A DNA stretch of 29,118 nucleotides from Chrysochromulina parva (lineage: Eukaryota > Haptophyta > Prymnesiales > Chrysochromulinaceae): assembly GCA_002887195.1 (NCBI GenBank), contig PJAB01000346.1, forward strand, positions 1 to 29,118, given 5' to 3'. The notes beneath the pieces were generated by a model. That model had not been told where the DNA came from, did not search any database, and saw nothing but the letters and a program-made list of their open reading frames with translations. Numbering within the stretch: the first letter of the stretch is position 1; the number at the start of each line of letters is the position of its first letter. Shown in pieces: positions 1,366 through 23,393 of the stretch. The position numbers and the translations under genes are program-made.

Positions 1366-4300
1366 TTAGTGGCCCTGCGCGACGTAGAAGCCCTCCTCCT
1401 CCTGGAGCAGCTGCACGATCGCCCCAACGGTCCTACCGGTCAGGTCGGCCTCGGCTGTGGGCGCCGCAATCTTGGCCAGCAGCAGCTTATCGAGCTCGAC
1501 CCGCAGCTGACGAAACAGCACCGCCACGCGCGGCGGCGCCTCAAACTCCATCCAACCATCGATGGTGATCGTCTGCTCCGCGTGGCGCACCTGACGGGGG
1601 AGATGGTCTGGGCGCCGTCGTGAGCGCTTGCATGCGGGGACATGCGGGGCATTAGCGGCAAGGGCATTGACGAACCTTGAGCTCGCCTCCAAATAAGAGG
1701 AGCGGATAGGGCGTCACCATTGACGAATCTCGCAGGTACACGCGCCCGGTGCGCACCTGTCCGTAGAAGCACGTGCCAAGATCAGAGGCTCATCACAGGC
1801 TCATCAGCGGGTCAGAGGCTCATCATAGTCTCATCATAGTCTCATCAGAGGCTCATCAGAGGCTCATCATAGGGTCATCAGTGCGAGCGCACTTTCTCGT
1901 AGTACACGAGCCATCGCGATTCGAAGAGAGGTAGGCCCGAATTCACCGAGGATGGGTGGATCTCGACGGGAGCTCCGCCGTACCTGCAATCAGCCACAAT
2001 CAGCCGTGATCATCCGCAATCATCCGCAATCAGCTGCAGTTCGTATCCGAGGCGGTTCGCGGACATCAGAGGCAATCAGCCGCAATCAACTGCCGTACCC
2101 TTCGAGGGAGGGGGTGCCACCCCTCCCCCCTTTGCCGCCGCCCTTGCCTCCCTTGCCTCCTTTGCCTCCCTTGCCGCCGCCCTTGCCTCCCTTGCCGCCT
2201 TTGCCGCCAATGCCACCGCCCCCCTCGGCATCCGCGAGCGTCGACGCACGCACCACGTTCGGGTACAGCCCCGCGCACAACACGGCGCGCACGCACGGTA
2301 TCGAGGCGGCGTGAGCGTTGTAGTGGGCACCTCCCAACGGCCGTTGCTTCATGATCGCCTTCACACTCGCCTGAGAGGCTAACGGCTCCACCTTGGTGGA
2401 CGGCTCAGCCTCCTTCCTTTTTTGGAGGCTTCCTTTTGTGGAAGACTCCTTCGCCGCCTCGACCTCGTTGACCTGATGTCGTTGACCGCGAACTTCGACC
2501 TCGTGGACCTGATGTCGGCCCGATATTTCCTTTCTTGGATCCGCGAGGTCCCATTCTCGCGTGCTCCCGAAAAAGTCCACAAACTCGTTGCGCGTGTACG
2601 CCGCGCCGTCCGGCGCCACCCGCCGCTCGGGAATTTGAGCCGGTGCACCTTCCTGTTGGACGACGGGCATGGGCGTCGTAGTGGGCGTCGTCGTGGGCGT
2701 CGTCGTGGGCGTCGTCGTGGGCGTCGTCGTGGGCGTCGTCGTGGGCGATGATGGCGTCGTGTCGGGCGCGGGGGCACGTCGGGTGGGCGGCGGCGGCGGC
2801 AGGGCAAGCTGCGGCTGCACGAATCCGATCTCGAGGAGCATCTCGAGGAACTGTCCCATCACCTGGTCCATTTGAGTCAGAGTGTCATCAGAGACACATC
2901 AGAGTGTCATCAGAGTGTCATCAGAGTGTCATCAGAGTGTCATCAGAGTGTCATCAGAGTGTCATCAGAGGCTCATCACCTGGTCCATTTGAGTCAGAGT
3001 CTCCCAAGAAAGGAAGTTGGTGCGGCAAAGCTCGCGCGCCGCCGCCGCGCCTCGCGCCGACGCCCGACGAAACGCTTCATAAGCATGCAAGATGGCGAGG
3101 TGGTCTGAGCGGAGCACGCCCGCGAACCTAATGAGGGAGCCAATCAGCATGCCATCAGCATGCAAGATGGCGAGGTGGTTTGAGCGGAGCACGCCCGCGA
3201 GGGAGCCAATCAGCATGCCATCAGCATGCCAATCAGCATGCACTCAACATGCACTCCGCATGCACTCCGCATGCAATCAGCATGCACTCGGCATGCACTC
3301 AGCATGCACTCAGCATGCACTCTGCATGCACTCTGCATGCACTCTGCATGCACTCGGCATGCACCTCTTGCGTGCGGCGCGCGCCTCGTCGCGGTGGTCA
3401 AAGGGCTCGACGAAGGGTGAGCGGAGGGAGAGGCCAGCGGCGATGATGAGGATGGGGTGCAGGCAGCCGAGCATGCTGCGGGAGAGTGAGAGGCGATTAG
3501 GAGGCGATTAAGGGCAATTAGGAGGCGATTAGGAGGCAATTAGCTTCTACAAAGATACGGGGCAGTTGGCGTCTACCACGATGATGATGGCGAGGGCCCA
3601 AAGAGGGGCCATCAGATCTCCAAAGAGGAGCATCTGAATCTGAATCTGAATCTCAATTTAAATCCTCAATCTCAATCTCAATCTCCATCTGTAACTCGGT
3701 CTCGCACCTGCCAAAGAGGAGCATCTTGCCGATGCGAACGTCTACCGGTAGCGTCGCGAGGTGGTGTCCGAGGGGCGTGAGCTCCTGCTGAGGACCCTCG
3801 AGAGCCTGATGAGGGAGGCAATCAAGGTGATGAGGGAGGCAATCAAGGTGATGAGGGAGGCAATCAGCCTGATGAGGGAGGCAATCAACTGATGAGGGAG
3901 GCAATCATAATCGCACCTGCAGTTCGGCGAGCGTCGTGATCGCCTCCCGCACCGCATGTGCGGCAGGTGGGTTGAGTGCCTTCGACAAGAAGGATTCGAT
4001 CTCGCCGAGGTCGAGCAGCTTGATCTGCGGGCGGAGATCGTGCGGCGGCGCGGTCATCAACGGTGATGAAAGATCGCCAATGATCATCAGCGGTCATCAG
4101 CGGTCATCAGCGGCCATCAGCGGTCATCACCTGCAGACAGAGCTCGCGTAACGGTCATCAGTGGTCATCAGCGGTCATCAGCGGTCATCAGCGGTCATCA
4201 GCGGTCATCAGCGGTCATCACCTGCAGGCAGAGCTCGTGTAAAGGCACGCGGAGCATCTCGGGAGGTTGGAAGGGAGCCATCCCGTCCGAACGAGCCTTC

Positions 4301-7300
4301 GTGTACCTGTGGGGACACGGGGCGCCGTGGTGAGCGCTTGCATGCATGGCAGGGAGGTTGGAAGGGAGCCATCCCGTCCGAACGAGCCTTCGTGTACCTG
4401 CCGCAAACATGCTCCATCAGAGTGGCCGTCGGACAGCATCAGGCGCAATCAGGCGCAATCAGGCGAGGGCTCTTCGCAATCAGGCTCAATCAGGCGCAAT
4501 CAGACGCGGGTTCGTCGCAATCAGGCGCAATCAGGCGCAATCAGTCGAGGGCTCGTCGCAATCAGGCGCAATCGGACGCAATCAGACGAGGGCTCGTCGC
4601 AATCAGCCGTCATTACATGTAGAACGCCTCGCCCGCCTGCACACGGCCTGCACGTCCGCGCCGCTGCCGTCGGTTCGCCGTTGAGATCCAGCAGTCGATC
4701 AGCTGCGGGAGCCTGTTAAGCGCGTCGTATCGGTTCTCCTTGGCACGCCCCGAGTCGATGACGATGATGATGTCATCAATCGTGATCGAGGTCTCGGCGA
4801 TGTTGGTCGCAATCACGACCTTGCGCTGGCCGTTGGGCGGCTGTTGGAAGACGGCGAGCTGCTCCGAGATCGCAATTGAAGTGGTCATCAGTGGCCATCA
4901 GTGGTCATCAGTGGTCATCAGTGGCTATCAGTGTTCATCAGTGGTCATCAGTGGTCATCAGAGGCCATCATGACCCATCAGAGGTCATCAGTGGCCATCA
5001 GTGGCACTCCCCTGCTTGGCCGAGGCTTGCAATGAGAGAGGTCATCAGAGGCCATCAGTGGTCATCAGTAGCACTCACCTGCTCCGACTGCGCAATCATC
5101 GAATGTAGCGGGAGCGGCAGCAGCGTTCGGCTTGACGGAACACCGACGGAGAGGGCTGCATGCAACGCCATGATCTCATGGGCGCCTGGGACGATATCAC
5201 GAGAGGCGATCAGAAGGCCATCAGCAGTCAGCATGCAATCCGAGGCAACTCTGAAGGCAATCACGGCAATCAGAAGGCAATCAGCATGCAAACCGAGGCA
5301 ACTCTGAAGGCAAGCACGGGTCCATCAGCAGGGTCGTCACCGGGCATGAACACAAGGATCGCGCCTGGCGGTCATCAGGGCGTCATCAGGAGGTCATCAG
5401 GGCGTCATCAGTCGTCATCAGGGTCGTCACCGGGCATGAACACAAGGATCGCGCCTGGCGGTCGATGCGCATCGAGATGAAACACGAGCGCCGCAATCGC
5501 GTCAATGTTCACTCGCTCCTCGTCCATGATCTCGAGAGACTCGTACACGTGCCCCGGGTACGTCGCCGCACCATCAGCCACAGCCGCCGCCCGCGCCGCC
5601 TCCTTGGCCACCGCCGCGCTCAGGGCGTCTCGCATGGCGCCGCGCGCCTGTGGGGAAGGGCGGGGCGCCGTGGTGAGCGCTTGCATGCTGGAGCACTCGC
5701 CGCGCTCAGGGCGTCTCGCATGGCGCCGCGTGCCTTGCCAGAGCCGTCGCCCTTGCGCAAGTTCGCATGCATCGCGACCATCTCGGAGAAGCCGAGCCCT
5801 TCCCCTCCACCGCGCTGTGTTGGGCAAGGGCATGCGAGGAGGTGAGGTGGTGTTTGGCGCTCAGAGAGGCGCCGTGTCGGGCGCTCAAAGGTGGCACGAA
5901 GATGTTGGCGCTCATCGATGGTCTCTGGTGCCAAAGGAGGTCATCAGAGGTCATCAGAGGCCATCAGTGGGTCCTCAGAGGCAATCAGCGGCGCACCTCG
6001 GCCGAGCGCTCGCGTTTCGCGTACTGCGAGCCCGGCTCGATGATGAATCCGGTCATCATGAGAATCTCCTCAAGCCAATGCTCTTCCACAGGATGGGTGA
6101 AGCCGGGGATGTGCAGCGAAGGCGCGGGGGACGTCCGGATTTGGAACGTGGGTGCAACCATAATAGGCAAGCCCACCTCGGCTTCGTCATCCTGATTCGT
6201 CAACTTCGTCACCTTCGTCTCCTCAGCTTCGTCATCGAGGATTCGAACGGCGAAGTAGTTGGAGAACATGGAGGCATTGACGGTGGCGGACATGAGGATG
6301 ATGCGGATGGAGGGGCGACGGCGCACGAGATCGCGCAGGATGATGAGCAGAAAGTCGCTCTGCAGTGAGCGCTCGTGGACCTGATGATAGAGGCAATCAG
6401 CATGCAATCAGAATGCAGTCCGCATGCACTCAGCATGCACTCAGCATGCACTCAGCATGGCACTCGGAAGAAAGCCGCTCTGCAGTGAGCGCTCGTGCGA
6501 GTACCTCGTCCACGATCTGATGATGGAGGCAATCAGCATGCAATCAGCATGCAGTGAGCGCTCGTGCGAGTACCTCGTCCACGATCTGATGATGGAGGCA
6601 ATCAGTGAGCGCTCGTGGACATGATGATGGAGGCAATCAGTGAGCGCTCGTGTGAGTACCTCGTCCACGATCACGTGCGAGATCCCGCCGAGATCGGCAT
6701 CTCCGTGCAATCGACGCAGCAGCACCCCCGTCGTGCAGAAGAGGAGACGCGTGGCGGCCGAGCGCTTCGACTCGAGGCGGATTTGATAGCCCACCTGCCA
6801 AATATGGACATCATCCAGCGCAATCAGGCGCAATCAGACGCAATCAAGGGCCATCCGACGCAATCTCAGTACCGTCTGGCCGAGTGGCTCGCATCGCTCA
6901 GCGGCCACCCGAGTCGCCACACCGATAGCACTTAAGCGACGAGGCTGGGTGCAGATGATCGAGACGGCGCCCGCACGGCCGGACTCTATGGCGTCGTCCA
7001 GGATGAATTGAGGCACCTGCCAAATTAGGGAGCGGGTTTGGGGCGATCAGAGGCACTCCGCGAGGCCAGCAGAAATGGGGGCACACCTGAGTCGTTTTCC
7101 CACAGCCTGTCTCGCCACTGACCACAAGCACGGAGTGGCCCTCGAGGGCGCTCAATACGGCGCGGCGTTTGGCGGCGGCCGGTAGCTTGTCACGCGCCGC
7201 CTGCATCTCGTTCCATTTATGGGTGCCTTGCTTCGCGCGGTGCAAGGCATGCAGCTGCTGCCCCTGCGACTGCTGAGCCGCCGTTAGAGGCGCAGGTAGC

Positions 7301-10300
7301 AGAGCGGCGGCAAGGTCGGAGGCCTTCATGGGAGGCGGCGGCGGCGGAGCGGGAGCGAGAGGAGCTTCCATATCAGGCGATGCGGGAGGGAGAGGAGCCT
7401 CAGTGGCGGTGGACGCGAGGGTAGCGGCAGTGAAGGCTCCGGCCGCATTGCATGCCGAATCGGCAACGCCATCTGACGAAACGGCACCCACTCGACCCAA
7501 ATTAGGCAATACGCCATCCGACGAAATGGTACCGCCGTCGAGCGCCCTCGTGAGCACTTCCTCGTCGTCTGTGCCCAACCTTTCCATATTGGGTACTGCG
7601 GTGGTCACCTTTTCGTGAGCACTGGCGGAGGCGGTAGAGGTCTTGCCCGCTGCCAGCACCGCCGCCGTCGCCGTCGCCGATCCGCTCCCGCCATTTTGAA
7701 GGTGCTCGGGCCATTCGCCGAGAGTTCCTCGACCCCTGCCCATATTAGGCAGGTGACTCCCGCCATTTTGAAGGTGCTCGGGCCATTCACCGAGAGTTCC
7801 TCGACCCCTGCCCATATTAGGCAGGTGACTCCCGCCATTTTGAAGGTGCTCGGGCCATTCACCGAGAGAGCCTCGACCTCTGCCCATATTAGGAAGGTGC
7901 TCGGGCCAATCAGCGAGAGTTCCACGCCCTCGACCTCTGCCCGTATTCGACGCTAAAACCACCCCTGTCGACGCTGAAACCACCCCTGTCGACATTGCCG
8001 ACGCCGCCGGTGCCGCCGGTGCCGCCGGTGCCGCCAAGAGCGCCGTACCGAGCGCCGGAGCCACCATCGCCGCCGATGCTGCCGGTGCTGGTGCTGGTGC
8101 TGCCTCGACCGCCGCTGCCGCCGGTGCTGGTGCTGCTGCCGCTTGCGCTTGCGCTTGCTGCCTGGCCGCTCGCTTCGCAGCAGCCTCAGCCTCGTCCTTT
8201 TGGATCAGCGCTTTGACCTGCAATCCAGTGCTAATCAGAGCCCAATCAGAGTCCAATCAGAGTTCAATCAGTGGCGATCCGGTTCTAATCAAAGTCCAAT
8301 GAGGACCCAATCAGAGTCCAATCAATCCTCTCATCACACCTGCTCCCGACGACGCTCCCTCTCCGCCTCCATCAGTGGTCATCAGTGGCCATCAGCGATC
8401 ATCGGTAGCACTCACCTGCTCCCAACGACGCTCCCGCTCCGCCTCCTCCGCCGCCTCGCGTTCCCGCCGCACCTAATTAGGGAGAGAAGTGCGCCGTGGT
8501 GAGCACATGCATGCAAGGGCGCCTCCTCCGCCGCCTCGCGTTCCCGCCGCACCTCCGACTCGAGTAACGAGCGCATCGCAAGCGAGTCACGCGCATACGC
8601 CGCCGACTCGTGTGCCGTCGTGCCCACACGCGCCGTTGTGAGCGGGCGCGCCGCCCCACCGTCGGCCGCCGCCGCCGCCGCCGCCGCCGCCTCGGCGGCG
8701 CCCGCCTCGGCCGCCGCAGCCGCGACCTCCTCGACCGTTTGCGGCGGCGGCTTGATGCATGCTAGCCGTTGGAGCAGATGAGGCAGCTCCTGTCGAAACC
8801 AGCTGAGCAGGTCGAAGAGCACAGGCGCCGCGCCGCTGCCGGAGGCCGCATTCTCGAGATGATCAGTCATCAGTGGTAATCAGCGGTCATCAGCGGTCAT
8901 CAGCGGCACTCACCTGCCGGAGTCCGCATTCTCGAGGGCGAGCTGCAACCCCCGCCGCAGAAGGACCTTTGTAAGCTCGAGCTGCGTTTGGGGCAGGAGC
9001 TGTGGACAGCACACGGCCACCAGCGGCGGCGCTCGGGGGTAGGGCCACCACGGGCGCGCGGCGCGGGAACAGACGAGCAGCTCGAGTGATTCCACAGTGC
9101 TCGACGATCTCGCCTGATGAGGAGCGCAATCAGGCCGACGCAATCAGGAAGGGCGACTCAGGCTGGGAGATTCAATCTGGGAGATTCAATCTGGGAGATG
9201 CAATCCGGGAGATGCAATCCGGGAGATGCAATCCGGGAGATGCAACCACAGGGCTTCCACAGGGCTTCCCACAGGGCTTCCACAGGGCTTCCACAGGGCT
9301 TCCACAGACGTACCTGCTCGATGACGCCTGCCATCAAGGCGCCCGTTGGGAGTCGCGTGCCATCAGGGGCGAAGCCCGAGAGACGCGCCGCAAGGTGCCT
9401 GATGAGGGGTGCCATCACGAGGTGTCATCAGAGGTCATCAGGGGCGCCGCAAGGTGCCTACCCGAGCGGCACGCACTCGGGTTCGTCAGGGGCACTCGGG
9501 TTCGTCCGGGGCACTCGGGTTCGTCATTTGCACTCGGGTTCGTCAGGGGCACTCGGGTTCGTCCGGGGCACTCGGGTTCGTCATTTGCACTCGGGTTCGT
9601 CAGGGGCACTCGGGACGCATCCGGGTTCGTCAGGCAGGCACCCGTCCAAGGCGCCCTCGGCAGCGTGGGCCTTGGAGCAGTATGCCGAGTGCACGATGCG
9701 GTTGGTAGGCAGCGCGCAGCCCGGCAGCACGCAGTTCAGACAGCGTCCAGCGGCGGGCACGGCCGACGCGCCGCCCCGAGCACCAGCGCCTTCATCATCG
9801 TCGATCAGATGCTCGGAGCTAAATGTCCACGGTGCCTCACCTGCCAAGTTAGGAATGCGTGTGGGGGCATCCGTGGCAAAGCAGTGGCCATCAGCGGAAT
9901 CAGTGCCAGTCAGACGCAATCATACGCAATCATACGCAAACATACGCAATCAGGCGCAATCAGGCGCAATCAGGCGCAATCAAAGGCTCACCGGTCGATG
10001 CGTCCCAGAGCAGAGTGAGGACGGATCCGCCCGCGGTTTGACGAAACTCGGGCCCGAGGATCGCGCCGAGGGCGGCCTCCTCCTCCGCCTGCATCTCGCG
10101 CAGCTCAGATTGCATCTCGTGCGCCTCAGATTGCATCTCGTGCGCCTCAGATTGCATCTCCGGAGCAAGCACCAATCTCCGCAGGCGCTCGAGCCCCGCC
10201 AATCGCGCGCTCGCCGCCCGCGCGGCCGCCATGCGCCCCGCCGCCGTGGCGCTCGTCATGGCGCTCGTCGACGCGCCGTCTTGAGCGACCGTTGGCGCGA

Positions 10301-11318
10301 CCTGACCCGGACCGTTGGCCGCGCTCGGCATGGCGCTTGGCAAGGTCGTCGCTAGTTTCTCGAGCGTTTCGCGTAGCAACGCCGCTAAGGCGACTTCCTC
10401 ACAATCGCCGCCGCCGCCGCCGCCGCCCTCGGTTGCCTCCGCTAGACGCACTATGCAACGTGAACGTGCGAAGCCAAAGGCACAGAGCCGCTGCAGCTGC
10501 GCACGCGCCACCGCCTCGGCCGCCTCCGCCTCCTCCGCCCGCATCGCCATCTCCGCACCCGAGATCGAACCCGAGATCGCATCTCCCTCCTCAGACGCGC
10601 GCTCGGGTTTCGTCAGCGGCGGAGGCTTGGGCGAGGTGCATATCTCGCATGAGCTCGCCTCCGCGCCGTTTTCGAACGTGCACGCGGAGCACGCCCACGG
10701 GCGCGGCGGCGGGGCGGGCGCTTGTGTCAGAGCGCCGCGCGCACCCGCCACTAGACTGATCCCACCGCCGCTGTTCCCACCTCCGCTTCCGTCCGCGCTG
10801 ATGCCGTTGTTCACACCACCGCTGTTCACGCTGCTGCTCGTCGCCAGCTTGGGTGCTGACGTGCGCGCGAGGCGCAGCTTGGGCCGGAACTGGAGCGGCA
10901 GCTCACCGATCGGCACGTGCACGCACAGCCAGTCCAAGCATTCGGAGAGCAGCCCTGGGCGGGCGAGCAGGGACGTGCCGCCCTCAACGCCTTCTCCCTC
11001 GCGTGCGAGCACGATGGCGACCGCCTGCCGAGCGAAGCGCTCGACGAATTTGAGCTCGGCCAAAGCTCGTAGCAGGAGCGTCTCGGTCCCGGCGTGCACG
11101 CTCGTCGTGGACGCCAGCGCCGCCGGCTCCTCGCGCAGCTCCTCGAGCAGATCGATCACCAGCACCTCCATCTCCGCCGACATGCCGACCGAATCGAGCT
11201 GCGCCGCGCGCTTCTTTGCCCATTTCTGCAAGCCCTCCTTTTGGTGCTCGAGGAACCGACGGTACGCGGCCTCCGCATTCGACTGCGGCGTCGCCTTCGC
11301 GGGTCTGTCTCGGCGCAT
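1366..11318 (-). CDS. DHX29/DHX57-like DExH-box RNA helicase, 23 exons
   Basis: ATP-dependent DExH helicase, about 2100 residues. In order: a UBA-like DHX29-type segment (75-150, CLDWLC then LPLQFRPK), a RanBP2-type zinc finger (206-229, WACSACTF then CEIC), a second UBA-like helix set (274-318), and an RWD domain split by three introns (410-600, with its YPRAPP motif). A small Cys/His finger (CLNCVLPGC then YCSKAHA) sits inside the RWD region. Then an RG-rich low-complexity linker and the helicase core: motif I GETGCGKT (about 1085), Ia [14 protein letters not shown] (1186-1189), III SAT (1218), [22 protein letters not shown]. The ratchet region has ELCLQIKLL and [11 protein letters not shown]. 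The C-terminal OB-fold has [31 protein letters not shown] and IDGWMEF. Pro/Thr- and Gly/Lys-rich inserts interrupt the C-terminal half. Relatives act in translation initiation or mRNA control; the exact orthologue is uncertain because the domain mix combines DHX29 and DHX57 traits. Confidence 0.9.
1591..1675 (-). other. Helicase intron 22 with introner-like core
   Basis: This 85-nt intron carries the shared core at 1611-1634 with one change (CTCACGACGG). It starts GTTCGTCAATG, nearly repeating ATTCGTCAATG found about 56 nt upstream inside exon 22. Confidence 0.75.
1757..1892 (-). repeat. Helicase intron 21, CTGATGAGCC repeat
   Basis: This 136-nt intron is built of about ten units CTGATGAGCCT and variants (CTATGATGAGA) on the sense strand, and ends CTACGGACAG. 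The donor follows GAGAAA, and GTGCGC occurs at both the donor and the following exon start. Confidence 0.75.
1984..2098 (-). repeat. Helicase intron 20, CTGATTGCGG repeat
   Basis: This 115-nt intron holds degenerate GCTGATTGCGG and GGATGATTGCGG units. The donor region reads GGGTACGGCAG and the acceptor exon starts with GTACGGCGG, a short boundary duplication. Confidence 0.7.
2630..2790 (-). repeat. Coding ACG-ACG-CCC repeat (Thr-Pro tract)
   Basis: Tandem 12-bp units inside helicase exon 20 encode TTTP repeated about six times. A second in-exon tract at about 2115-2225 encodes GGKGG units. Both lie in an insertion in the C-terminal half of the helicase and are likely length-variable, disordered linkers. 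Confidence 0.75.
2863..2979 (-). repeat. Helicase intron 19, CTGATGACACT repeat flanked by exon-end copies
   Basis: This 117-nt intron has about eight 11-nt units TCTGATGACAC. The 27 nt at 2974-3000 (end of exon 19 plus donor) are repeated exactly at 2857-2883, so the spacing equals the intron length. Confidence 0.85.
3128..3364 (-). repeat. Helicase intron 18, GCATGC-rich repeat and copy of exon 19 start
   Basis: This 237-nt intron is made of about 14 units such as TGAGTGCATGC and CAGAGTGCATGC. A 44-nt copy of the exon 19 start (exon copy 3082-3125) lies in the intron at 3158-3201 with one mismatch. Confidence 0.8.
3476..3707 (-). repeat. Helicase intron 17 with GAGATT repeat
   Basis: This 232-nt intron contains a GAGATT/CAGATT hexamer tract (3640-3690) and CCTAATCGCC units (3490-3545). 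A 16-nt copy of the exon 17 end (3711-3726) lies at 3620-3635. The acceptor is CTCTCCCGCAG. Confidence 0.75.
3806..3916 (-). repeat. Helicase intron 16, 18-bp GATTGCCTCCCTCATCA repeat
   Basis: This 111-nt intron consists of five near-identical units of about 18 bp on the sense strand; the last ends in the acceptor CATCAG. Confidence 0.8.
4025..4221 (-). repeat. Helicase intron 15, CTGATGACCG repeat with exon 15 end copy
   Basis: Two blocks of the decamer CTGATGACCG flank a 20-nt copy (4131-4150, two mismatches) of the exon 15 end plus donor (4222-4241). The copy could act as a micro-exon or decoy donor. Confidence 0.8.
4307..4616 (-). repeat. Helicase intron 14: CTGATTGCGC repeat, introner-like core, duplicated acceptor
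   Basis: The 5' half is about 13 units of GCGCCTGATT and variants. Exon 15's first 46 nt plus acceptor (4261-4309) are repeated exactly at 4352-4400. Between the copies lies the core (4321-4345). Using the upstream acceptor (4398) would shift the downstream frame, so splicing to 4306 is modelled. Confidence 0.75.
4859..5078 (-). repeat. Helicase intron 13, CTGATGACCA repeat
   Basis: This 220-nt intron has about 16 decamer units (CTGATGACCA, CTGATGGCCA). The exon 13 end (5079-5096) recurs in diverged form at the intron 3' end (4859-4876), spaced by exactly the intron length. Confidence 0.8.
5186..5430 (-). repeat. Helicase intron 12 with 43-nt exon 12 end copy
   Basis: Sequence 5421-5463 (exon 12 end plus donor) is repeated exactly at 5331-5373, inside the intron. 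The remainder is CTGATGACG and CTGATTGCCTT units. The acceptor is ATCGTCCCAG. Confidence 0.8.
5648..5733 (-). other. Helicase intron 11, GC-AG intron with introner-like core
   Basis: The donor is AAG|GCACGC and the acceptor CTTCCCCACAG. The first 36 nt of the intron (5698-5733) copy the first 36 nt of exon 12 (5612-5647) with one mismatch; spacing is 86 nt, the intron length. The core lies at 5664-5687. Confidence 0.75.
6381..6659 (-). repeat. Helicase intron 9 in the DEVH motif, with repeated exon-boundary copies
   Basis: This 279-nt intron splits DE from VH. It holds two extra copies of GTACCTCGTCCACGAT (6501-6516, 6570-6585; the exonic one is 6656-6671). The 14-mer AGTGAGCGCTCGTG occurs five times between 6363 and 6653, counting the boundary copies. 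Each internal copy has an upstream CATCATCAG and a following GTACTC, so it resembles a 12-nt micro-exon. Confidence 0.75.
6795..6872 (-). repeat. Helicase intron 8, CTGATTGCGC repeat
   Basis: This 78-nt intron has donor ACG|GTACTG, three decamers of CTGATTGCGT type, and acceptor CATATTTGGCAG. Confidence 0.8.
7017..7086 (-). other. Helicase intron 7
   Basis: This compact 70-nt intron lies between GKTTQ and VPQFIL. The acceptor reads CCTAATTTGGCAG, with a CTAAT branch-like motif only about 8 nt from the AG. Confidence 0.85.
7685..7900 (-). repeat. 72-bp coding repeat in helicase exon 7
   Basis: Three tandem 72-bp units encode [18 protein letters not shown] followed by SHLPNM. Each contains CCTAATATGGGCAG, close to the intron acceptor motif used elsewhere in the gene. 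The protein segment is RG-rich and probably disordered. Confidence 0.85.
8218..8415 (-). repeat. Helicase intron 6 with exon 6 end copy
   Basis: The exon 6 end (8416-8446) recurs at 8340-8370 with two mismatches, period 76 nt. The copy has its own AG upstream and GTGTGA downstream, so it could be a 27-nt in-frame alternative exon. The rest is CTGATGGCCA and CTGATTGGAC units. Confidence 0.75.
8473..8552 (-). other. Helicase intron 5 with introner-like core and exact 35-nt flanking duplication
   Basis: This 80-nt intron starts with 33 nt identical to the start of exon 6. Sequences 8440-8474 and 8520-8554 are exact copies including the AG before each. Between them lie the core (8491-8514, slightly diverged) and the acceptor CTCCCTAATTAG. 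Confidence 0.85.
8836..8913 (-). other. Helicase intron 4 flanked by exon-end duplication
   Basis: This 78-nt intron has donor CGGCAG|GTGAGTG, then CTGATGACCG units. The 23 nt ending exon 4 (8914-8936) recur at 8836-8858 with one mismatch, just before the acceptor; spacing equals the intron length. Confidence 0.85.
9114..9313 (-). repeat. Helicase intron 3, two tandem repeats
   Basis: This 200-nt intron has five units of about 11 nt (GTGGAAGCCCT), then seven units of 14 nt (GGATTGCATCTCCC), then CTGATTGCG and acceptor CTCATCAG. Confidence 0.8.
9399..9641 (-). repeat. Helicase intron 2, GACGAACCCGAGTGCCCCT repeat
   Basis: Eight or nine units of about 17-19 nt fill 9475-9630. The start of exon 3 (9385-9400 with AG) recurs at 9444-9459 inside the intron. 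Confidence 0.8.
9841..9991 (-). repeat. Helicase intron 1, CTGATTGCGC repeat
   Basis: This 151-nt intron has about seven units of GCGCCTGATT and GCGTATGATT. The acceptor is CCTAACTTGGCAG. Confidence 0.8.
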
Positions 11319-11560: not shown

Positions 11561-14500
11561 TTAAACGAGCATCCCCAGGGCTTTGAGCGCATACGGCTTG
11601 AAGCCGACGGCCTTGATCTCTGCGGCTGCGAAGCCTCCATCCTTGAGCTCCTTGGCCGTCAACTTGAGCGCTTCGTGAAGCTCCTTGGCGCTAAAGCCAG
11701 CCTCTCGGAACTGATCCACTGTGAACGAGCAGGAAGCCATGTCCTGGATCGTGAAGCCGGCCCCCCGCAGCTGCGTCGCCGAGAACCCCACCTCCTCGAG
11801 GTCAATGGCCTTGAAGCCGACCGTGCGGAACTCGTCGGGGGCGAAGCCGACCGGATGCAGCTGGGCGAGCGTGTAGCCGCCCTCGTATAGCTCGGAGAGG
11901 CCACAGCCGATGGCGTGCAACTCGACCGCGCTGATGCGGCCCGCAATGCGTAGCTCTTTCGCGCTGATGCCCGCCTCGTGTAGATGCAAAGTCGTGAAGT
12001 TGGCCGACAGGAGCTGCCGTACTTTGAAGCCGCCGTCGTAGAGCTGCCTCGCGCCAATGCCGCACGCGATCAAGTCCTCGATGGGGTAACCTCCCATCCT
12101 CAAGTCGGCGACCTTGAAGCCGTTTTCTACGAGCTTCTCGATCGAGAAGCCGGCATGGCGCAGCACTTGCACCGGAATGCCTGCGAAGACCAGGTCGGGC
12201 AGCGCATAGCCTGCCTCAGCCACCTCCTCCTTTTTGTAGCCGCCCGCGCGGAGGTCGGCGGCGGAATAGCGCGCCGCTTGCATTTCCTTGGCAGTGAAGC
12301 CAGCCTGCCATAGGAATCAGCAGTGGCGATCAGCAGTGGCGATCAGTGGCGATCAGTGGCGATCAGGGGCGATCAAAGGACGTGAGTTGGCATTCGGTGG
12401 CACTCAGTAGGCGGGCAGTTTATCAGTGGCAATCAACGACACTCACCTGCCGCATCTCGGACACGTCAAAGCCCGCGAGCTTAATCTCGGACGTCGTGTA
12501 GCCACCCGCCTTGATCTCGGCGGCGGTAAAGCCCGCTTCTCTGAGATCGGCGCACGAGTACAAGTGCGCGTGGAACTCCTGCGCCGTGTAGCCCCCATTC
12601 TTGAGCTGGCTAGTCGAGTAGCCCGCCTGCTTCATCTTGAGCAGCTTTGTGCCGATCATGCGGAGCTCCGAGAGCGAATAGAATTGCGCCAAGTCCTTGA
12701 TGTCAAAGTGGTCCTTGAGCTCGAGAAGCGAGATGCCGCCGGCCTTCATCTCCTTGATTGAGAAGACGGAGGCGATGCGCAGCCCGCACGCGCGGATCTC
12801 CATCATCGAGAATCCTCCATCTCGAAGGTCGAACGCACTAAAGCCTGCCTCCTCCAGCAGCTTGGCGCTCACGTTTGCTTGGCGGAGCTCATTCACACGG
12901 AACCCACTCAAACGCATCTGTTGGATGGTGCACCCGATCCGAAGCAATTCCTCAACGCCAAACCCGACGTCTTTGAGCTCCTTGACGGTGGCGCCATTCG
13001 TCTTCAGGTCTTCGGCGCTGCACCCGCCCTCTTTCAGATCGTGCCACTTGAACCCCGCCTCGAGCAGCTCCGGGGTGCTGATCTTCGCGTGCCGCAGCGC
13101 CTTGATGGGGAAACCGCCGGCCTTGAGGTCGGGTAGCGTATACCCGAGCTCGAGCAGCGCCTTTACCTTGTAATTCTTCTCGCGCAGCTGCGCCACCGTG
13201 AAGCCCGCGGCCGTCAGGTCGGCGGCGACGAAGCCGATATTGATGAGCTCGTCCACGGTGATGTCGGCCGTCGCAAGCACCTTTGCGGAGAAGCCAGCTT
13301 GCTTGAGTTCGTCTGGGGCGAAGCCCTTGCCCTCGGCGTACAGTTCGCGTGCCTTGAAGCCTGCAGCTATCATCTGCTTGCAGTTGAAGCCCGCATCCTT
13401 GAGCGGCACGACCGCGAACCCTGCGGCCCGCAGCTCGCTCGCACCCAAATCTGCGGCCCGGAGCTCAGGCGCCGAGAAGCCCGCGTCCTTGAGCTGCACG
13501 ACGGTGAACCCGCCGGCGAGCAGGTCTTCTGCCTTCAAGGCGAGCTTCTTGAGCGTGGCGGCGTTGAAGCCACATTCGCGCAAGTCGCGGACGGAGCACC
13601 CTGCTGCGGAGAGCTCGTGAGCGCTGAAGCCGCTCACGCGGCACTCTTGAAGTGTGATGCCTGTCCCCATCAGAGTGGCCGCATCGAAGCCCACCTGCCT
13701 CAGCTCTTGCGTGGTGTACCCAGCCGCCTTGAGCTCCAGAAGCGGGTACCTGATGCAAGGTGCACTCGGAGCTCATCAGTGACGCCATCAGGGAGGTCAT
13801 CAGCAAGGCCACTATCGAACCCATCAGGGAGGTCATCAGGGAGGTCATCAGGGAGGTCATCAGGGAGGCCATCAGGGAGGCCATCAGCGAGGCCACCATC
13901 GAACCCATCAGCAAAGCCATGAGTGAGGCAATCAGCGACCATGAAGAACAATCAGCGTACCCTGCCTCCTTGAGCTCCTTGAGCGGCAGACCCTCGGCCT
14001 TTAGGCCGATGACAGAGATTCCAGCCGCCTTGAGATCCGCGACGGACGAGCCAGCCATTGCGAGGTCGTTGAGAGAGACGCCCACCTTGCGCAGCTCTTC
14101 AGCGCCGTACCCGATGGCCTGCAGCTCCTGCGTGCTGTACCCGGCGGCGCGCAGCTCGACCAAAGTGAAGCCGACGGCCTTGAGAGAAAAGGCCGAGCAT
14201 TTCGCGTCGCGAAGCTCGCCCGCCTCGTAGCCCGCCGACTTCAGCACCTCAACCGACCATCCAGTGCCGATGGCCTCGACGGCGGAGTAGCCGGCGCCCT
14301 TAATCTTCTTGGCGCCAAATCCCGCGTCCCGCAACTCGGAGGCGAGGTAGCCCGCGATGCGCATCTCGGCGCCGCTGTACCCCGCTGTGCGCAGGTCGGC
14401 GATCGAGAAGAAGCCCACCTCGCGCATCTCGGAGCAATAGTAGCCCGAATTCCGCAGATCCGCCGCCGGGTAGCCTCCATTGACGAGCTCCTCGAGTGTG

Positions 14501-17448
14501 AAGCCGGCGTCTCGCATCTCCTTGGCGCTGAACATGGCCTTTCGCAAATCGTCGGGCGTGAAGAGAGGCTTGAGCGTGCGGAGGTCGAAAGTGCCCTCCT
14601 TGAGCTGCGAGGCGTCGAAGCCATTGTCCTTGAGCTCGGCGGCTGAGATGCCCGCCTCCTTGAGCAACTTGGGGCTGAACCCACCCTCGGATAGCTCGAT
14701 GGGCGTGAAGCTGGCCATCCGGAGCTCCTTGGCAGAAAAGGTTCCTAATCGGAGCTCGGCCGCTGAGAAACCGGCCACCTTGAGCTCATGGGCCTTGAGG
14801 CCAGCAGCTTTGAGGCCGTCGGCGGTGAACCCGCCAACCCGCAGCTCCGCCAGGTTGAAGCCGGCGCTCAACAGCTCCGATGCCGCGAACCCCACACTCC
14901 GAAGTGTCTCTGCATTCACCAGGGTGAACAAGTGGCCGCGTCGGCACGAGCCCTCGACGATCATTGAGCACAGCTCCTTCTTCCAGGCGTCCCGTTTCAA
15001 CCGGCCAGTCTTGGCGGCCACGCACATGGTGATGGTGCGATCGCGCGCAATCTCTTCGTACGCTGTGATGGGCCCGTCGACGTTCTGCCGCAGCATGTCG
15101 GCAATGAAGAAGATCTCCTCACGCCACGCCCCCCCCGGAATGAAGAACGGGGTCGCCTTCAGTGCTTCAATCGCCTCGTCGCCGCCCTTTCGCAGGCGCG
15201 CGATCGGAATGATGCAGCCGCTCACCGCCGACAGCTTCAGGTGCTTGAGGGCGCTCAGCGTCGCCTGGCTCTGGTTGAGCTGCTCGAGCAGCGGCACCCC
15301 TGTCGCCTTCGTCCCGACCCACGTCAAGCCGCTCAAGGTCAGGTCGAGGCTGATCAGGCTCGAGTTGCGAGAGAGCGCGTCGATCAGCGGGCTGATCTCG
15401 GCCCCATCGAGGTGGTATGGGCACTTCCACTCGACGATCGTGCCCTTCTTGAGCGCGTCGAGCGGCAAGCCCGCGCCCACCTCCCAGAGCTGGAGCGCTT
15501 TGGCGCCGATCGTGAGACCCGCCGCGCGCGCGCCCGCAATCACCTCGATCCACAGCTTCAGCATCGCGATGGTCGAAATGAGGATCGAAGTGGGAAGCAC
15601 CGCCGCAAACTCGAGCATGGCCAGCTCCGAATCGGACGCGGTGCCCGCCTGCGTGCGGTAGATGACGACCACGTAGATGTACGACTGGAGGATGCACTGC
15701 GGTAGCGACTCGATGACCACCTCGGCGATGATGCGCGTCGCCTTGTAGGCCGGGATGAACTGCCGCAGCCACTCGGGAAAGGGCAAGATGGCGAGCAGCC
15801 CAAAAGGCTCAAAGAACATCAAGCAGTCGAGCGCCAAGAGGCCCCACGGGAAGCCGAAGACGAGGAAGAAGAGGTAGATCGAGCTGTTCGAGCCAAACGT
15901 ACTCTGCAAGTACGGCAGCACGCGCAGCTCGACGATGAGGAACTGGAACACCAGAAGGAAGATGCCGATGCCGGACCAGGTGTAGTTGCCCGTGGTCCAG
16001 AGCAGCACCGAGACCTGCACATCCGAGACGAGGTCCGCAAAGTAGAGGCCGACGGAGAAGATTCCGTTGGCCGAGCGCATTAGAATCTGGAGCAGAGCGC
16101 TCTTCATCAGGCGCCCGACAAAGCCCGGCGAGGTCGCCGAGCTGCCGGCCTGTTTCGGCGCCTCTTTGCCCCGAGCAAGCGCGTCGCCCGAGGCTTCCGC
16201 ATGCGTCGTGACTGCCTTCCGGATGCCCATCAGCCCCGACTGGAGGTTCTGGCACCGGGTCTGTAGCCGCTTGAGCTTCTCCGAGCACTCCTTCGCTTCG
16301 GTGGTGGTAGGATTCTTGCGGTACCGCACCTTGTATTGGACGTCAAGCTCATCGGCCTGGTCTTGCGTGGCTCTCAACTCCTCCTTCAAGTCCTCTTGCG
16401 ATAAGGCGGTGTCATCAGCGATGGAGGGTTTGCCGGGCACGGCCGAGGCGGCCGCCTCCGGGACTCCAGCCTCGATGTCTTCACCCCGCGCCAGAGTCTC
16501 AAGCTGCTCCTTTTGCTCCTGCTTCTGATGCTGCGCTCTGGCATGGGCTGCCTGCAATAGCCCCCAAAAATGCTTGAACTCGTCGAGCTGGAGCTCCCCG
16601 TCGCCATTCTCGTCGACTCGAGCGATAGCGCGCGTGATGTCCTCCTCCGAGACGCTCCTGTTCAGGGCATCTCGAAGCTCTTTGGCATCCACGGTGCCGC
16701 TTTTGTCCTTATCTAAGACGGCGAATGCATCGACGTAGTTCATGGACATGTGCAGCTTGGAGCGCTTTGCAAAAGTCGCCTCCGTAAAGAATCCATTCAG
16801 CATACCCGAAGCCTCTTGCTTATCGATCTCAATATAGCCATAGCGCGAGAGGCGCACGAGTTTATCCTGCAGCCGCCTAATGCCTTTCCTAATCTCCTCG
16901 AGGTAGAGGAAGAAGGCTCCTATGGCGAATACGATGCCGAAGTTGAGGGAGAGACAGAGAACCGGGTGAGCCTCATAGTAGGTGAAGACCCGATTCATGA
17001 TGGAGGCGGAGTCTACAAGATCTACGTTCAGCGACTTTTGCAAGGTGTCAAGCATGATTCGTATGAATTCGAAGGATGCGACGAGGATCGCACACGCGAT
17101 TAAGAGCTCGACAGCGCCTTGGCGATGCAGCTCCACTAAGTACTCACGTAGGTCATCGCACATCTGCTTGGGAGATGGGCATTGGCACGACGTAGCCCTC
17201 GCTGACACTGCCTCTGAAGGTGCATCTGGAGCGGGAGCCCCTTCAATGGCACCTCGATTGCCGACGCGACTGAAGTAGACCTTCGCAGACCGGCCCACCG
17301 GCGGAGGGCAGGACATCGGGGTGGTGAGCGCTCCATCGGTGCCAGCCAATATCGGCGGCGTGCCTGTTCGATCTGTCATATCTTCCGATCTGGTGAGCGC
17401 ACTTAACCTTCGCGAGGCGATTTTGGCCAGGTTGCGAACGGAAAGCAT
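11561..17448 (-). CDS. EF-hand / XK-related membrane protein with C-terminal decapeptide repeats, 3 exons
   Basis: Exons 17448-13961, 13749-12447 and 12304-11561 give 1844 residues with consistent phases (2, then 0). In order: two transmembrane helices (112-134, 161-183); two canonical EF-hand loops (DKDKSGTVDAKE at 246, DENGDGELQLDE at 279); a charged coiled-coil-like stretch (300-435); and a multi-pass domain (462-635). The latter has FADLVSDVQVSVLLWTTG and VIESLPQCILQSYIYV, which match the XK-related (scramblase) family. An LRR-like stretch (685-745) follows. From about 851 to the end come about 100 tandem decapeptides of pattern GF(S/T)AxELKxA. XK-related proteins scramble phospholipids or partner membrane transporters; here calcium control is an inference from the EF-hands. 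The first ATG was used; Met 24 is an alternative. Confidence 0.85.
12305..12446 (-). repeat. XK-like gene intron 2, CTGATCGCCA repeat
   Basis: This 142-nt intron has donor CGGCAG|GTGAGTG, about six CTGATCGCCA units and acceptor CCTATGGCAG. Splicing joins SEMRQ to AGFTAKEM, preserving the decapeptide register. Confidence 0.85.
13750..13960 (-). repeat. XK-like gene intron 1, CTGATGACCTCC repeat
   Basis: This 211-nt phase-2 intron has donor GTACGC, about twelve CTGATGACCTCC or CTGATGG units, and acceptor TTGCATCAG. Splicing restores LKEAGYPLLELKAAGY in the decapeptide register. Confidence 0.8.
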
Positions 17449-17741
17449 TTCGGCTGTACTCTTAGCACGACGAGTGCATGGAGACTACCAGCGTGCAGCC
17501 AAGCAGTGCAGCTGGAAGCTTGAGAGGCACGCGACGAGAGAGCCAAAAAGGCACCCCAGCACGTTTGGGATTTTGAAGGAGGACACATCTGAAACTTCCC
17601 CCATGCGGCAAGTTTTTCTCGCCGTGCCGTCAAAAGACATCCACGTTTGGGATTTTGATTGAGAAAACGTTTCACATCAACCGTCCACCCAAAGTGGTAA
17701 GTTTTTCCAAGGGGTCCTCCCAGCCCCATGGTTTTTCTCGC

Positions 17742-19672: not shown

Positions 19673-20520
19673 CCCAATGGGCAGAGCGCTCGCCCAATTG
19701 GCAGTCAGCCCAATTGGCTGATCATTAGCCCCAAAGGCTGATCATTAGCCCAATTGGCTGATCATTAGCCCAAAAGGCTGATAATTAGCCCAATTGGGCG
19801 ATCTTTAGCCCAAAGGCTGATCATTAGCCCAATTAGCCGGGGGCGGGGCGGGGGGTATTGCCGACGCGCGTGTGGGGGGGCGCATGGGCGCATGGGCGTA
19901 GGGCGCTGAGTCGGGCGCATGGCACATGGCGTAGGGCGGGGCTCCCGTGGGCCGCCGCCCCGGGCGTTTGCACGTATTCAGCTCACAAGGGTACGAAGTA
20001 CGCAATCGAACGTGCGAAGCCGATGGGCGTGGAGGGGTCGGCGGTGCAAGCTGCATGATGGTGCACACGTCCGCTCCCGGGCCCACGGCCACGCAGCGCG
20101 CTACTCGTCTCTGTTCTATCTCTCGTCGCTGATTCGCTCTCGCGCGGCGCCTCGCTGCCCGGGTCGTACACGATTAGTTGTGTGTGGCAACTGGCATCAC
20201 TTTCGGGGCCAAGAAATGCGACGCCATGATCCGGCATGCGCGCTACTCGTAGATGCATCTCTCGAAACTCGAAGGCCAGTCGCCCAATGGCCACTCCGCG
20301 CGCGGCCTCAGTCCCCGAGTCTTCCTAAAGTCTCCCCCCGTTCCCTAGCCGGTAACATATTACTCGAGTCTCCCCGCCCTCTCCCTATCATACTTGATAG
20401 GCCCTTGCGGTCGGGGTGTGTGCGAGGTCAGAACAGCGGGAGCGACGGCTCCCTAGAGCCTAATTAGGCGACTCCCACGCGCCAAGGATTCTGCTCGAGG
20501 AATGTGTGCACCGCCTCTTC
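19673..20520. other. Convergent intergenic region
   Basis: It lies between the EF-hand stop (+) and the CHIP stop (-). It holds the GCTGATCATTAGCCCAA repeat at its start, a GC-rich stretch (19840-20300) and a 61-bp copy of the CHIP gene end at 20459-20519. I see no gene; the ORFs there show no family similarity. Confidence 0.55.
19690..19840. repeat. About 20-bp tandem repeat downstream of the EF-hand gene
   Basis: Five or six units of GGCTGATCATTAGCCCAATT and variants, containing the palindromic GCCAATTGGC. On the + strand the unit again contains CTGATCATTAG, matching the orientation rule of the introns. Confidence 0.85.
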
Positions 20521-20579
20521 CTAATTAGGCGACTCCCACGCCCAAGGATTCTGCTCGAGGAATGTGTGCACCGCCTCTT
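20459..20579 (-). repeat. Tandem duplication of the CHIP gene 3' end
   Basis: 20459-20519 and 20520-20579 are near-identical, with one single-base indel. The upper copy encodes the C-terminus of CHIP ending in PN-stop from CCTAATTAG; the lower copy lies just after the stop. Confidence 0.9.
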
Positions 20580-21572: not shown

Positions 21573-23144
21573 CTACGCAGCCCTGCAGGCGACCAGCAGC
21601 CGATCCTCGACCGAGCGCGTAGTGTAGCGGACGAGCCGCACGCTGTACCCGAGCTCACCCTGCAGCGCCGCCGCTCGGCTATAGTCGAGCATGCATTTGA
21701 CTTGTCGGCCGAGACGAATCTTCTCGTCGCGCGGGAAGGTGCGCTCAAACTCGGACGAGTCCATGAAAGCAGGTGGGGGCGGGCCCGACTGCAGCCGCGT
21801 GCGTGCGCTCCGTGCGAGCTCGAAGAGATCGGGCAGCCAGCGAGATTGCCCCGAGATTGTCTCGGGACGCTCAAAGTCGGGAAGCGACTCGCCTTGCACA
21901 CCATCGCCGGACGCGGACGCCGCGGACGCGGTCACCTTTGCAGACGCGGTCGCCGCCTCTGCTGACGCCGGCATTGTGGCCACAGGGAGGGCCGCTGGAC
22001 CGTCCGAAACGTCCAAGGCATCCTTCGGCTGCATGCATGCCCGCTGACTCTCCTGGGGCGCAGCTTCCTGATTTGGCGCAGCGCCTGGCTCCGGCTCCGG
22101 CTGCATGCATGCCCATTGGCTCGTGGCCACTGCGACCCGAAACTCCTCCTCGTCCAGCCCGCATGCATTCCAAAACGGGCGGCCCGAAAAGTCGTCCCAA
22201 CGGCAGAGGTAGTGGCAGCACGTGGCGAGGCAGCAGGGCGGTCGTCGATGGGGCGGCGCCCGGCGCAGCGCCTCCACGGCCAGGTCGCAGGCCGGGCCGC
22301 ACAGATGCTTCGACATGCAGAGCTGACGTCGATCCGCGCCGAAGTCGAACGCGGCGATGTCCTTCACGAGGCGCACGACGGCGTCCGGCGGCGCGTCGCT
22401 GGGCTGGCCCGAGGGCGAGGCACGCTTGCGCATCGCGTGGTCGCTGCAGGCACGCCCTTTGAACTGCTGCCGGTCGACGAGCACGTGGGAAAAGCGAGCG
22501 CCCGTTAGCTGCTGCAGGCGCTCGGATAGGCGAGCGGTCCCAGCGCCAAGCTCGACCGCCACTGTCGTTGAATCGGATAGGCCGCCGATGCGCGCGAGAT
22601 GGCGGACGATGGACACCTCCTGCTGCCAGTGCTTGCCGCCAACCTGTCCTGGCCGTCGCCGGCTAGTCTTGGTCGCCTGGCCGTCGTCGAGCAGCTCCTC
22701 CAGCGGAAGCGGCGGAAGGGACTGTAGCACGAGGTCGAGCTTCCAACGTAAGCGCTGCACCGTTATGCCAGTTGCCGCGGTGATGCGACTGGGTGCGGCG
22801 CGGCCAGTGCCAGCTGCTGCTGCTCCTACGGCTGAAGGCTCGGCTGCCGCTGGAGCTGCCGCTGGAGCTGACGCGTGAGGCTGGACTGCTGGCTCTTCCG
22901 AAGACGCACCGGAAGATGGGTTAGCATCGCCGTCCCCTGCATGAGCACCCCACGAGAACGGCGTATGTCCCGGCGGCACGGCGTCCGTGTGCGCCCGTAG
23001 CCATGAGAAACGCGTGTGGCCGCAGGGCAGCCAAGCCGCCACGTTTCCCATCGTGCACGGCTGCATGCAATTCGGCGCGCGAAGTTTCGGACACGCTCCA
23101 AAGGCGAACATGTAACCAGTATCCCAGCTTTCTTGGGCAGGCAT
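21573..23144 (-). CDS. TRM13: tRNA:m4X (2'-O-) methyltransferase TRM13 homologue
   Basis: About 523 residues from the first ATG. The family methylates the 2'-OH of position 4 in the acceptor stem of some tRNAs. Seen: an N-terminal Cys/His cluster (ACPKLRAPNC to PCGH) that fits the family's small zinc finger; the SAM-binding motif VAVELGAGTARLSERL followed by VLVDRQQFKGRACSDHAMRKR; and the family signature KHLCGPACDLAVEALRR, then CCLATCCHYLCRWDDF and VATSQWA. The C-terminus is RLGRQVKCMLDYSRAAAL then GYSVRLVRYTTRSVEDRLLV. An Ala/Pro/Ser-rich insert of about 75 residues, with WACMQPEPE and RACMQPKD, separates the last two blocks. The frame is open a little further 5' to 23165 without an ATG, and a short first exon is possible, so the N-terminus is uncertain. 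Confidence 0.9.
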   Translation of the reverse strand: MPAQESWDTGYMFAFGACPKLRAPNCMQPCTMGNVAAWLPCGHTRFSWLRAHTDAVPPGHTPFSWGAHAGDGDANPSSGASSEEPAVQPHASAPAAAPAAAEPSAVGAAAAGTGRAAPSRITAATGITVQRLRWKLDLVLQSLPPLPLEELLDDGQATKTSRRRPGQVGGKHWQQEVSIVRHLARIGGLSDSTTVAVELGAGTARLSERLQQLTGARFSHVLVDRQQFKGRACSDHAMRKRASPSGQPSDAPPDAVVRLVKDIAAFDFGADRRQLCMSKHLCGPACDLAVEALRRAPPHRRPPCCLATCCHYLCRWDDFSGRPFWNACGLDEEEFRVAVATSQWACMQPEPEPGAAPNQEAAPQESQRACMQPKDALDVSDGPAALPVATMPASAEAATASAKVTASAASASGDGVQGESLPDFERPETISGQSRWLPDLFELARSARTRLQSGPPPPAFMDSSEFERTFPRDEKIRLGRQVKCMLDYSRAAALQGELGYSVRLVRYTTRSVEDRLLVACRAA

Positions 23145-23393
23145 TCGCGGGGCGGAGTTGCGCACAGCAGAACGTGCTCCTGGACCTCGCAGCCTCCTCC
23201 ATCTTCACCACCAGCACAGTGCACCTCTCCCTTCCGCCATAGCTGCCTTGGCGCTTGCCGAAAAAGTCAAATTCAGCGCCTCCAAGAACCTGGTGCGTTC
23301 CGCGGTTCTTCAGGGACGTCCACCCCTGGTTTGGGAGTGTATGCGTCGTACGGCTGTGGATCGCAGACCGCGGAGCCGGGAAAAGGGCTCGCA
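23145..23393. promoter_or_regulatory. Divergent TRM13 / esterase 5' region
   Basis: Both genes start from this roughly 250-bp stretch and diverge. The esterase frame stays open upstream to about 23016, overlapping TRM13 on the other strand. A shared bidirectional promoter, overlapping 5' ends, or short unrecognised first exons would all fit. Confidence 0.4.

Follow-up and report, generated by a model that had tools for sequence, protein, structure and literature searches.

Why do the introns of a helicase gene in the haptophyte Chrysochromulina parva repeat the ends of the exons beside them? The question arises from a stretch of 29,118 nucleotides (nt), hereafter the window (positions 1 to 29,118 of contig PJAB01000346.1, our C346, in assembly GCA_002887195.1, which holds 45.07 Mb in 2,199 contigs). 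The original prediction for this stretch had offered two origins for the repeats, tandem duplication of a segment carrying AG/GT (the slash marks the border between exon and intron) or insertion with long target duplications, and had taken them as a sign of active intron gain. Our results speak for insertion: the copies enclose a common insert that is met again throughout the genome. With a probability of roughly 0.7, the exon copies were left by introners whose target duplications are very long and probably form when staggered breaks are filled in.

Exon copies in the introns of a DEAH-box helicase gene

The helicase gene was modelled by dynamic programming on codon usage and splice signals and then corrected against homologues, with false introns of early models (some in the repeats near the N terminus, others at the C-terminal end) removed before counting. 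This model arrived at the 22 introns that had been claimed (Table 1). A RanBP2-type zinc finger lies near the N terminus; two typed segments match DEAD, Helicase_C, HA2 and Zn_ribbon_RanBP in Pfam, and one exon matches DHX36 and DHX37 in the PDB. Across introns 7–22 (the 16 junctions that lie between the P-loop exon and the C-terminal domain), the spliced protein aligns to the covering relatives without insertion at the junctions, and the segments called introns in the helicase core are thus foreign to the protein. The six relatives shown are a fern, Micromonas and four metagenome proteins. This support covers introns 7–22 and none of introns 1–6, and for introns 10, 11 and 20, which fall in variable linkers, it comes mainly from a single relative, P0054. 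The latter (about 62% identical over 655 aligned residues) has a continuous frame across many of the introns; it was not used as an empty site, a genomic and an RNA contig being indistinguishable in its case.

Exon-end copies had been predicted in at least twelve of the 22 introns, and twelve (introns 2, 4, 5, 6, 9, 11, 12, 14, 15, 17, 18 and 19) indeed have a non-periodic repeat with a score of 16 or more, one copy of which lies at or within an exon edge; the other ten have none. Eleven of the twelve pairs originally listed hold base by base, with 0–3 mismatches (Table 1). The remaining one, 3082-3125/3158-3201, has 36 mismatches in 44 positions as written and becomes real when shifted by one base (period 75, 44 nt, score 40). 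The period equals the intron length exactly, as proposed, in introns 4, 5, 11 and 19, whose scores on the exact diagonal are 20, 35, 35 and 27, against 6–9 for the best of about 60 neighbouring diagonals. In the unmerged model, the periods of introns 6, 14, 15 and 12 (76, 91, 91 and 90) correspond to one of two abutting segments, or to the intron plus a duplicated micro-exon. Intron 14 is instructive in this respect: its 91-nt unit, with a perfect 49-nt exon copy, immediately borders the acceptor of an array intron, which looks like the result of a second insertion into an exon edge that already adjoined an intron.

Table 1 The helicase gene and those of its introns that carry exon copies or family inserts. 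Positions are those of the window; identities refer to the pairs as originally listed.
Feature	Position	Strand	Listed pair (identical positions)	Description
DEAH-box RNA helicase gene (DHX36/DHX57-like)	1366..11318	(-)		predicted 2,100 amino acids, 23 exons, 22 introns; spliced model
Intron 2	9399..9641	(-)	9385-9400/9444-9459 (16/16)	16-nt repeat, period 59, inside longer repetitive intron
Intron 4, 78 nt	8836..8913	(-)	8836-8858/8914-8936 (22/23)	own donor and CTGATGACC units; acceptor is copy (8836-8858) of upstream exon end (8914-8936)
Intron 5, 80 nt	8473..8552	(-)	8440-8474/8520-8554 (35/35)	35-nt exon copy with donor (8520-8554, 8440-8474) and 45-nt family-A insert 8475-8519
Intron 6	8218..8415	(-)	8340-8370/8416-8446 (29/31)	two abutting segments, 76 and 122 nt; 34-nt repeat, period 76
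Intron 9	6381..6659	(-)		exon-end copies repeated within one intron (6481-6536, 6550-6605, 6636-6691)
Intron 11, 86 nt, GC-AG in model	5648..5733	(-)	5612-5647/5698-5733 (35/36)	38-nt exon copy (5698-5735, 5612-5649) and 48-nt family-A insert
Intron 12	5186..5430	(-)	5331-5373/5421-5463 (43/43)	nested duplication, period 90 (5421-5463, 5331-5373)
Intron 13	4859..5078	(-)	4859-4876/5079-5096 (15/18)	CTGATGACC array; weak upstream exon-end copy at acceptor
Intron 14, 3' part	4307..4397	(-)	4261-4309/4352-4400 (49/49)	49-nt exon copy (4352-4400, 4261-4309) and 42-nt family-A insert; abuts array segment 4398-4616
Intron 15	4025..4221	(-)	4131-4150/4222-4241 (18/20)	array intron and abutting 91-nt duplicated unit
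Intron 17	3476..3707	(-)	3620-3635/3711-3726 (16/16)	16-nt repeat, period 91
Intron 18	3128..3364	(-)	3082-3125/3158-3201 (see text)	44-48 nt repeat, period 75
Intron 19, 117 nt	2863..2979	(-)	2857-2883/2974-3000 (27/27)	CTGATGAC array between 27-nt copies 2974-3000 and 2857-2883
Intron 22	1591..1675	(-)		family-A core 1613-1635; no flanking duplication detected

A shared insert between the copies

Introns 5, 11 and 14 contain a 42–48-nt piece in which the core GCATGCAAGYGCTCACCACGGCG, with one mismatch at most, precedes a pyrimidine-rich stretch that terminates in CACAG; in intron 5 this stretch reads CCTAATTAG. This core, which defines family A, has 1,680 matches with up to three mismatches in the 45-Mb assembly, the reversed pattern serving as control having none. 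Introns 4, 6, 13, 15 and 19 hold arrays of CTGATGACC-like units (family B), and a pattern of three such units gives 1,724 overlapping matches genome-wide (reversed control, 0). Core and array units are united in a longer form beginning GTACGTTGATTGCCACTGATGACCTGCCTTGCATGCAAG, the first 24 nt of which, corresponding to the class II 5' end, occur in 178 copies (reversed control, 0). Yet another intron 3' end, TCCCTAATTTGGCAG/GTG, has 63 assembly matches with up to two mismatches, including positions 7014-7031 and 9838-9855 of the window (reversed control, 0). All insert forms include a candidate branch point (CTCAC or CTGAT), and the insert of intron 5 combines one with an acceptor. Flanks differ among clusters while the inserts recur at unrelated sites, the property by which introners are recognized. 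Terminal inverted repeats, which would be expected of DNA-transposon (MITE-like) introners and were sought in 46 single-core inserts of 20–80 nt, did not rise above shuffled sequence (mean of 4.87 against 5.20 matches in 14 positions), with no insert reaching 11. Intron 22 is, with a question mark, an older family-A copy.

Apparent head-to-head cores on contigs C240 and C637, from a pattern search with 171 matches against 25 for the reversed control, proved to be normal single copies once the sequence was read, and a search for tandem cores returned mostly background. Pieces resembling CTAATATGGGCAG are also found within coding repeats, at 7685-7905 and 24323-24403 of the window. Beyond this genome, and considered with a viral vector in mind, a family-A element lies at 4495-4517 of an IMG/VR contig (read over 4200-4554), followed by CCCACCACAG/GTGAG near the contig end; the adjoining genes read as cyanobacterial, phage or bacterial, and the contig is probably a chimeric assembly. 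A scan of GTDB for the core found none.

Long duplications recur across the genome

We sampled, besides the window, twelve 3-kb loci, twenty 10-kb loci and eighty short stretches, all picked by motif matches, and obtained 167 distinct clusters (97 with family A only, 44 with family B only and 26 with both); loci retrieved afterwards stand outside these counts. In 97 of the 167, an ungapped repeat with a score of 13 or more is common to both flanks, against 1.2% of 835 trials with swapped flanks. A genome-wide search for introns that repeat the flanking exon had been proposed as a check; in this sample, the comparison with swapped flanks excludes chance as the source of the repeats. In an earlier, smaller test, 25 of 36 single copies had exceeded the 99th percentile. 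The duplications measure 13–51 nt (median 23) at a threshold that detects none below 13 nt, and their lengths form a broad histogram rather than a short, constant class. Both copies are identical in 44 of the 97, so that the 'little decay' first noted is a fair description of the copies seen, in a sample whose selection favours young ones.

A GT...AG pair at exactly the repeat period occurs in 57 of the 97 duplicated clusters, against 2–25 of 97 at 24 shifted spacings. A correlation between duplication and insert length (rho -0.70) was discarded, since both are cut from one period and an error in one generates the correlation.

Tandem arrays of duplicated stretch plus core occur at two loci, L118 and L119 (periods 43 and 32, about five to seven units), as if unequal exchange had acted on the duplications after insertion. 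At two others, L083 and L089, genes with unrelated flanks share, to the eye, nearly a whole intron, including the first gene's exon copy, as if the intron of one had been copied across to the other where the two are briefly similar.

Splice sites borrowed from the duplicated target

A preserved duplicate of the target makes the state before insertion readable from the sequence itself, and the copies reveal the borrowed splice site, the length of the stagger and whether an insertion looks spliced or translated. Donor-borrowing clusters have the donor at the start of the first copy and take their acceptor from the insert; acceptor-borrowing clusters take the donor from the insert and have the acceptor at the end of the second copy. 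The 97 duplicated clusters comprise 35 donor-borrowing (28 GT, 7 GC) and 19 acceptor-borrowing cases (17 GT, 2 GC), 15 with other placements and 28 with none. On these predicted splice sites, one core makes both classes.

Among the GT cases, GT starts the downstream exon in 27 of 28 donor-borrowers, only 12 of which have a preceding AG, and all 17 acceptor-borrowers have the AG, with a following GT in only two. Because the classes are defined by their own sites, the high frequencies are partly true by construction, and the information lies in how seldom the other site occurs. A complete AG/GT is present at 14 of the 45 reconstructed empty sites (12 of 28 and 2 of 17, respectively), and this rarity of the other splice site argues against duplication of AG/GT segments.

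Copies that appear unspliced

Nine duplicated family-A clusters have, by our own reading, neither the acceptor module nor a GTACGT donor, and the periods of seven are divisible by three (three cases at loci L001 and L045 are arrays, counted once each). The exceptions are L020+, with a period of 73 beside a stop codon, and L021+, with a period of 106 and a GT...AG pair at the exact period. Two automatic counts were set aside: a rule for copies without splice signals (13 of 22 in frame, p 0.012), which admits introns with displaced donors and whose 22 copies include the nine just described, and an earlier regular-expression count (12 of 15 in frame), which had misfiled spliced copies. Some family-A copies thus appear to sit unspliced in exons, mostly in frame. 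At L020, two cores lie antisense in an open frame of the opposite strand; one has a detected duplication, such that the protein repeats neighbouring residues.

Across 229 kb, the period of direct repeats is divisible by three in 48 of 54 without elements as opposed to 35 of 83 with them (p about 2e-8), the pattern expected if splicing removes most of the repeats that bear elements, whereas those without them are translated; it suggests that insertion is independent of splicing. The occurrence of unspliced-looking and antisense copies beside introns could make selection on intron length and reading frame separable from the insertion process.

Age of the insertions

One introner intron, at locus L017 in a gene read as HECT-ligase-like (HECT, PF00632, is listed for two relatives), allows comparison with relatives. 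Three JGI proteins, identical over 46 residues, end in two residues encoded by the intron start before its stop; they differ upstream from this assembly, which indicates other alleles or strains carrying the same intron. P0172 and P0174 (55% and 69% identical) lack it, both reading straight through the site. Both are probably genomic, since they later run into other, non-homologous sequence, and in one of them an insertion elsewhere is flanked by a repeat of nine residues, of which one differs. The comparison fits a gain within this lineage, and also the same process at work in a relative; at so large a distance, loss may account for it as well. The 'active intron gain' of the original prediction therefore holds in part: the many identical duplications and the L017 intron missing from two distant relatives support 'recent', while 'active', with no presence or absence seen within the species, is plausible and the less well supported of the two.

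Comparison with known introners

The introners of Micromonas pusilla and Aureococcus anophagefferens are reported (Huff et al. 2016) to be short non-autonomous elements that carry one splice site and co-opt the other from the duplicated target, as the inserts described here appear to do. Co-option of this kind is already published (PMC9860276). The elements of Aureococcus are described as carrying direct repeats, and also terminal inverted repeats, whose length is constant (PMC7789003), in contrast to the present ones, with no inverted repeats detected, variable duplications of 13–51 nt and one core making both kinds of intron. Those of Amoebophrya have inverted repeats of 8–20 nt, direct repeats of 3–5 nt and many non-canonical splice sites, and resemble ours as lineage-specific repeated introns with direct repeats at the borders of exon and intron (PMC7789003). 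The survey by Gozashti et al. 2022 likewise includes families supplying either the 5' or the 3' splice site, donors of the GC type, and families with target duplications and no terminal inverted repeats. It gives duplications of 3–9 bp for some earlier characterised families and 4 bp in its figure examples, far shorter than those found here, and the word 'tandem' is absent from its main text (PMC9860276).

New introns of Daphnia arising from repair of staggered breaks have repeats of 4–12 bp and, unlike ours, no described core shared genome-wide in the text available (PMC4202315). Rogers and Bendich 2025 interpret direct repeats at intron borders (4–30 bp, mean 11.4 bp, in 213 varied introns) as insertion footprints, as we do; our duplications are longer on average and enclose a common insert, and for theirs the abstract mentions none (PMC11782384). 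In the open-licence literature, with subscription papers, preprints and supplementary tables outside its scope, our search found no report of introners with such long duplications or of one core giving both classes.

Origin of the duplications

A duplication combined with an insert indicates a footprint left at the DNA level. Under the introner reading, very short non-autonomous sequences would insert as DNA into exons: staggered cuts 13 to about 50 nt apart would open the target, fill-in from both ends would duplicate the stretch, and a copied fragment of an existing intron would be joined between the two copies. A fragment ending in a branch point, a pyrimidine tract and CACAG would receive its GT donor from the first exon copy, and one starting with GTACGT or GTGAGT its CAG acceptor from the second; splicing would then take out one duplicate with the insert and restore the old mRNA. 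The lack of terminal inverted repeats in the inserts searched, together with duplications far longer than those of earlier introners, favours fill-in of a staggered break, and tandem duplications do arise by fill-in of breaks from paired nicks (PMC8355091). The great length of the duplications at introns may reflect selection on intron length: of 32 single-core introns that combine a duplication with an exact-period pair, 31 measure between 66 and 91 nt and one 153 nt, so that none falls below 66 nt. Bursts of introns are an old question, and long, variable duplications misfit the cut-and-paste picture of other introners and point to break repair.

Several observations weigh against this reading. 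A long duplication is missing from 70 of the 167 clusters, and 28 of the 97 duplicated clusters have no splice pair at the exact period, some of them with clear acceptors and a displaced or altered donor. Assignments of GC donors are weak, given that GT-or-GC pairs occur in 9–53 of 97 at shifted spacings. The loci were picked by motif, so that the rates are not genome averages, and near-exact matching favours young copies. Slippage within older introns could also have produced the family-B arrays. This fragmented assembly yielded no mobilising enzyme; of the reverse transcriptase that retroposed (LINE/SINE-type) copies would predict in abundance, it shows five RVT_1 matches (29.7–34.2 bits) just above the family cut-off, and a zf-RVT search had no positive control and is uninformative.

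The first of the two origins originally offered resembles the Rogers/Hellsten-type model, which is said to derive introns from tandem duplication of an exon segment with AG/GT that creates its own intron. Tandem copies with a period equal to the intron length do exist in the helicase gene, and the mechanism has been reported in potato (PMC4974935). The copies here nevertheless span only 13–51 nt of periods that are typically 66–91 nt, the rest being an element repeated genome-wide, and the reconstructed empty sites fit in the minority counted above; already contradicted for family A, this origin is very improbable. Least probable of all is reverse splicing of intron RNA followed by reverse transcription. 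It would account for one end of the spliced copies lying exactly at a splice site, but predicts full-length, sense-only copies free of duplications, against partial copies that have duplications of 13–51 nt and also lie antisense in an open frame, and is already contradicted for the copies with duplications. Minisatellite expansion or unequal exchange in old introns, dragging exon ends along, has a precedent in Cryptococcus (PMC2395259) and suits the family-B introns, which are arrays of 10–11-nt units, as well as intron 9 with its repeated exon-end copies. It leaves the single inserts of family A and the exactly spaced borrowed splice sites unexplained, and we consider it unlikely.

A stronger contender, to which we give clearly less than even odds, dispenses with the usual mobile element: error-prone repair of staggered breaks, by templated insertion or end joining, would copy fragments of the commonest intron sequences, and introns would spread because they are the commonest template and survive selection. 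The variable insert ends, the want of terminal inverted repeats, the tandem arrays of duplicate plus core and the paired-nick duplications explained by fill-in (PMC8355091) agree with it, and the genome encodes A-family DNA polymerases. Microhomology at the junctions was read by eye at single loci (8 nt at L066, and at L092) and, with the intron shared by L083 and L089, fits template-switch copying. Against such repair stand the preservation of one 23-nt core even in unspliced-looking and antisense copies, which suggests a sequence-specific process, and the fact that repeats without elements are mostly in-frame coding repeats. Tentatively, a route without transposase can be drawn: breaks with a wide stagger (13 to about 50 nt) would receive copies of intron fragments, each bearing a branch point. 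The fragment alone would be too short to splice, such that only insertions with long duplications would become introns, the shorter ones surviving as in-frame coding insertions; a single type of event would then turn one core into introns that carry a donor, introns that carry an acceptor and new stretches of protein.

Other features of the window

The minus strand at 11561-17484 encodes, by reading of its open frames, a protein with dozens of GFSAxELRxAG-type repeats joined to EF-hand-like and membrane-like parts; its gene has apparent array introns at about 12302-12450 and 13750-13970. At 20482-20579, a 38-nt repeat around CCTAATTAGGCGACTCCCACGC (period 60) lies at the end of a gene read as TPR/U-box-like. 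A long open frame at 21573-23204 reads as a TRM13-like tRNA modification enzyme (PF05206 in relatives), whose closest relatives are metagenome proteins 83–99% identical and whose named ones, at 34–47%, include diatoms.

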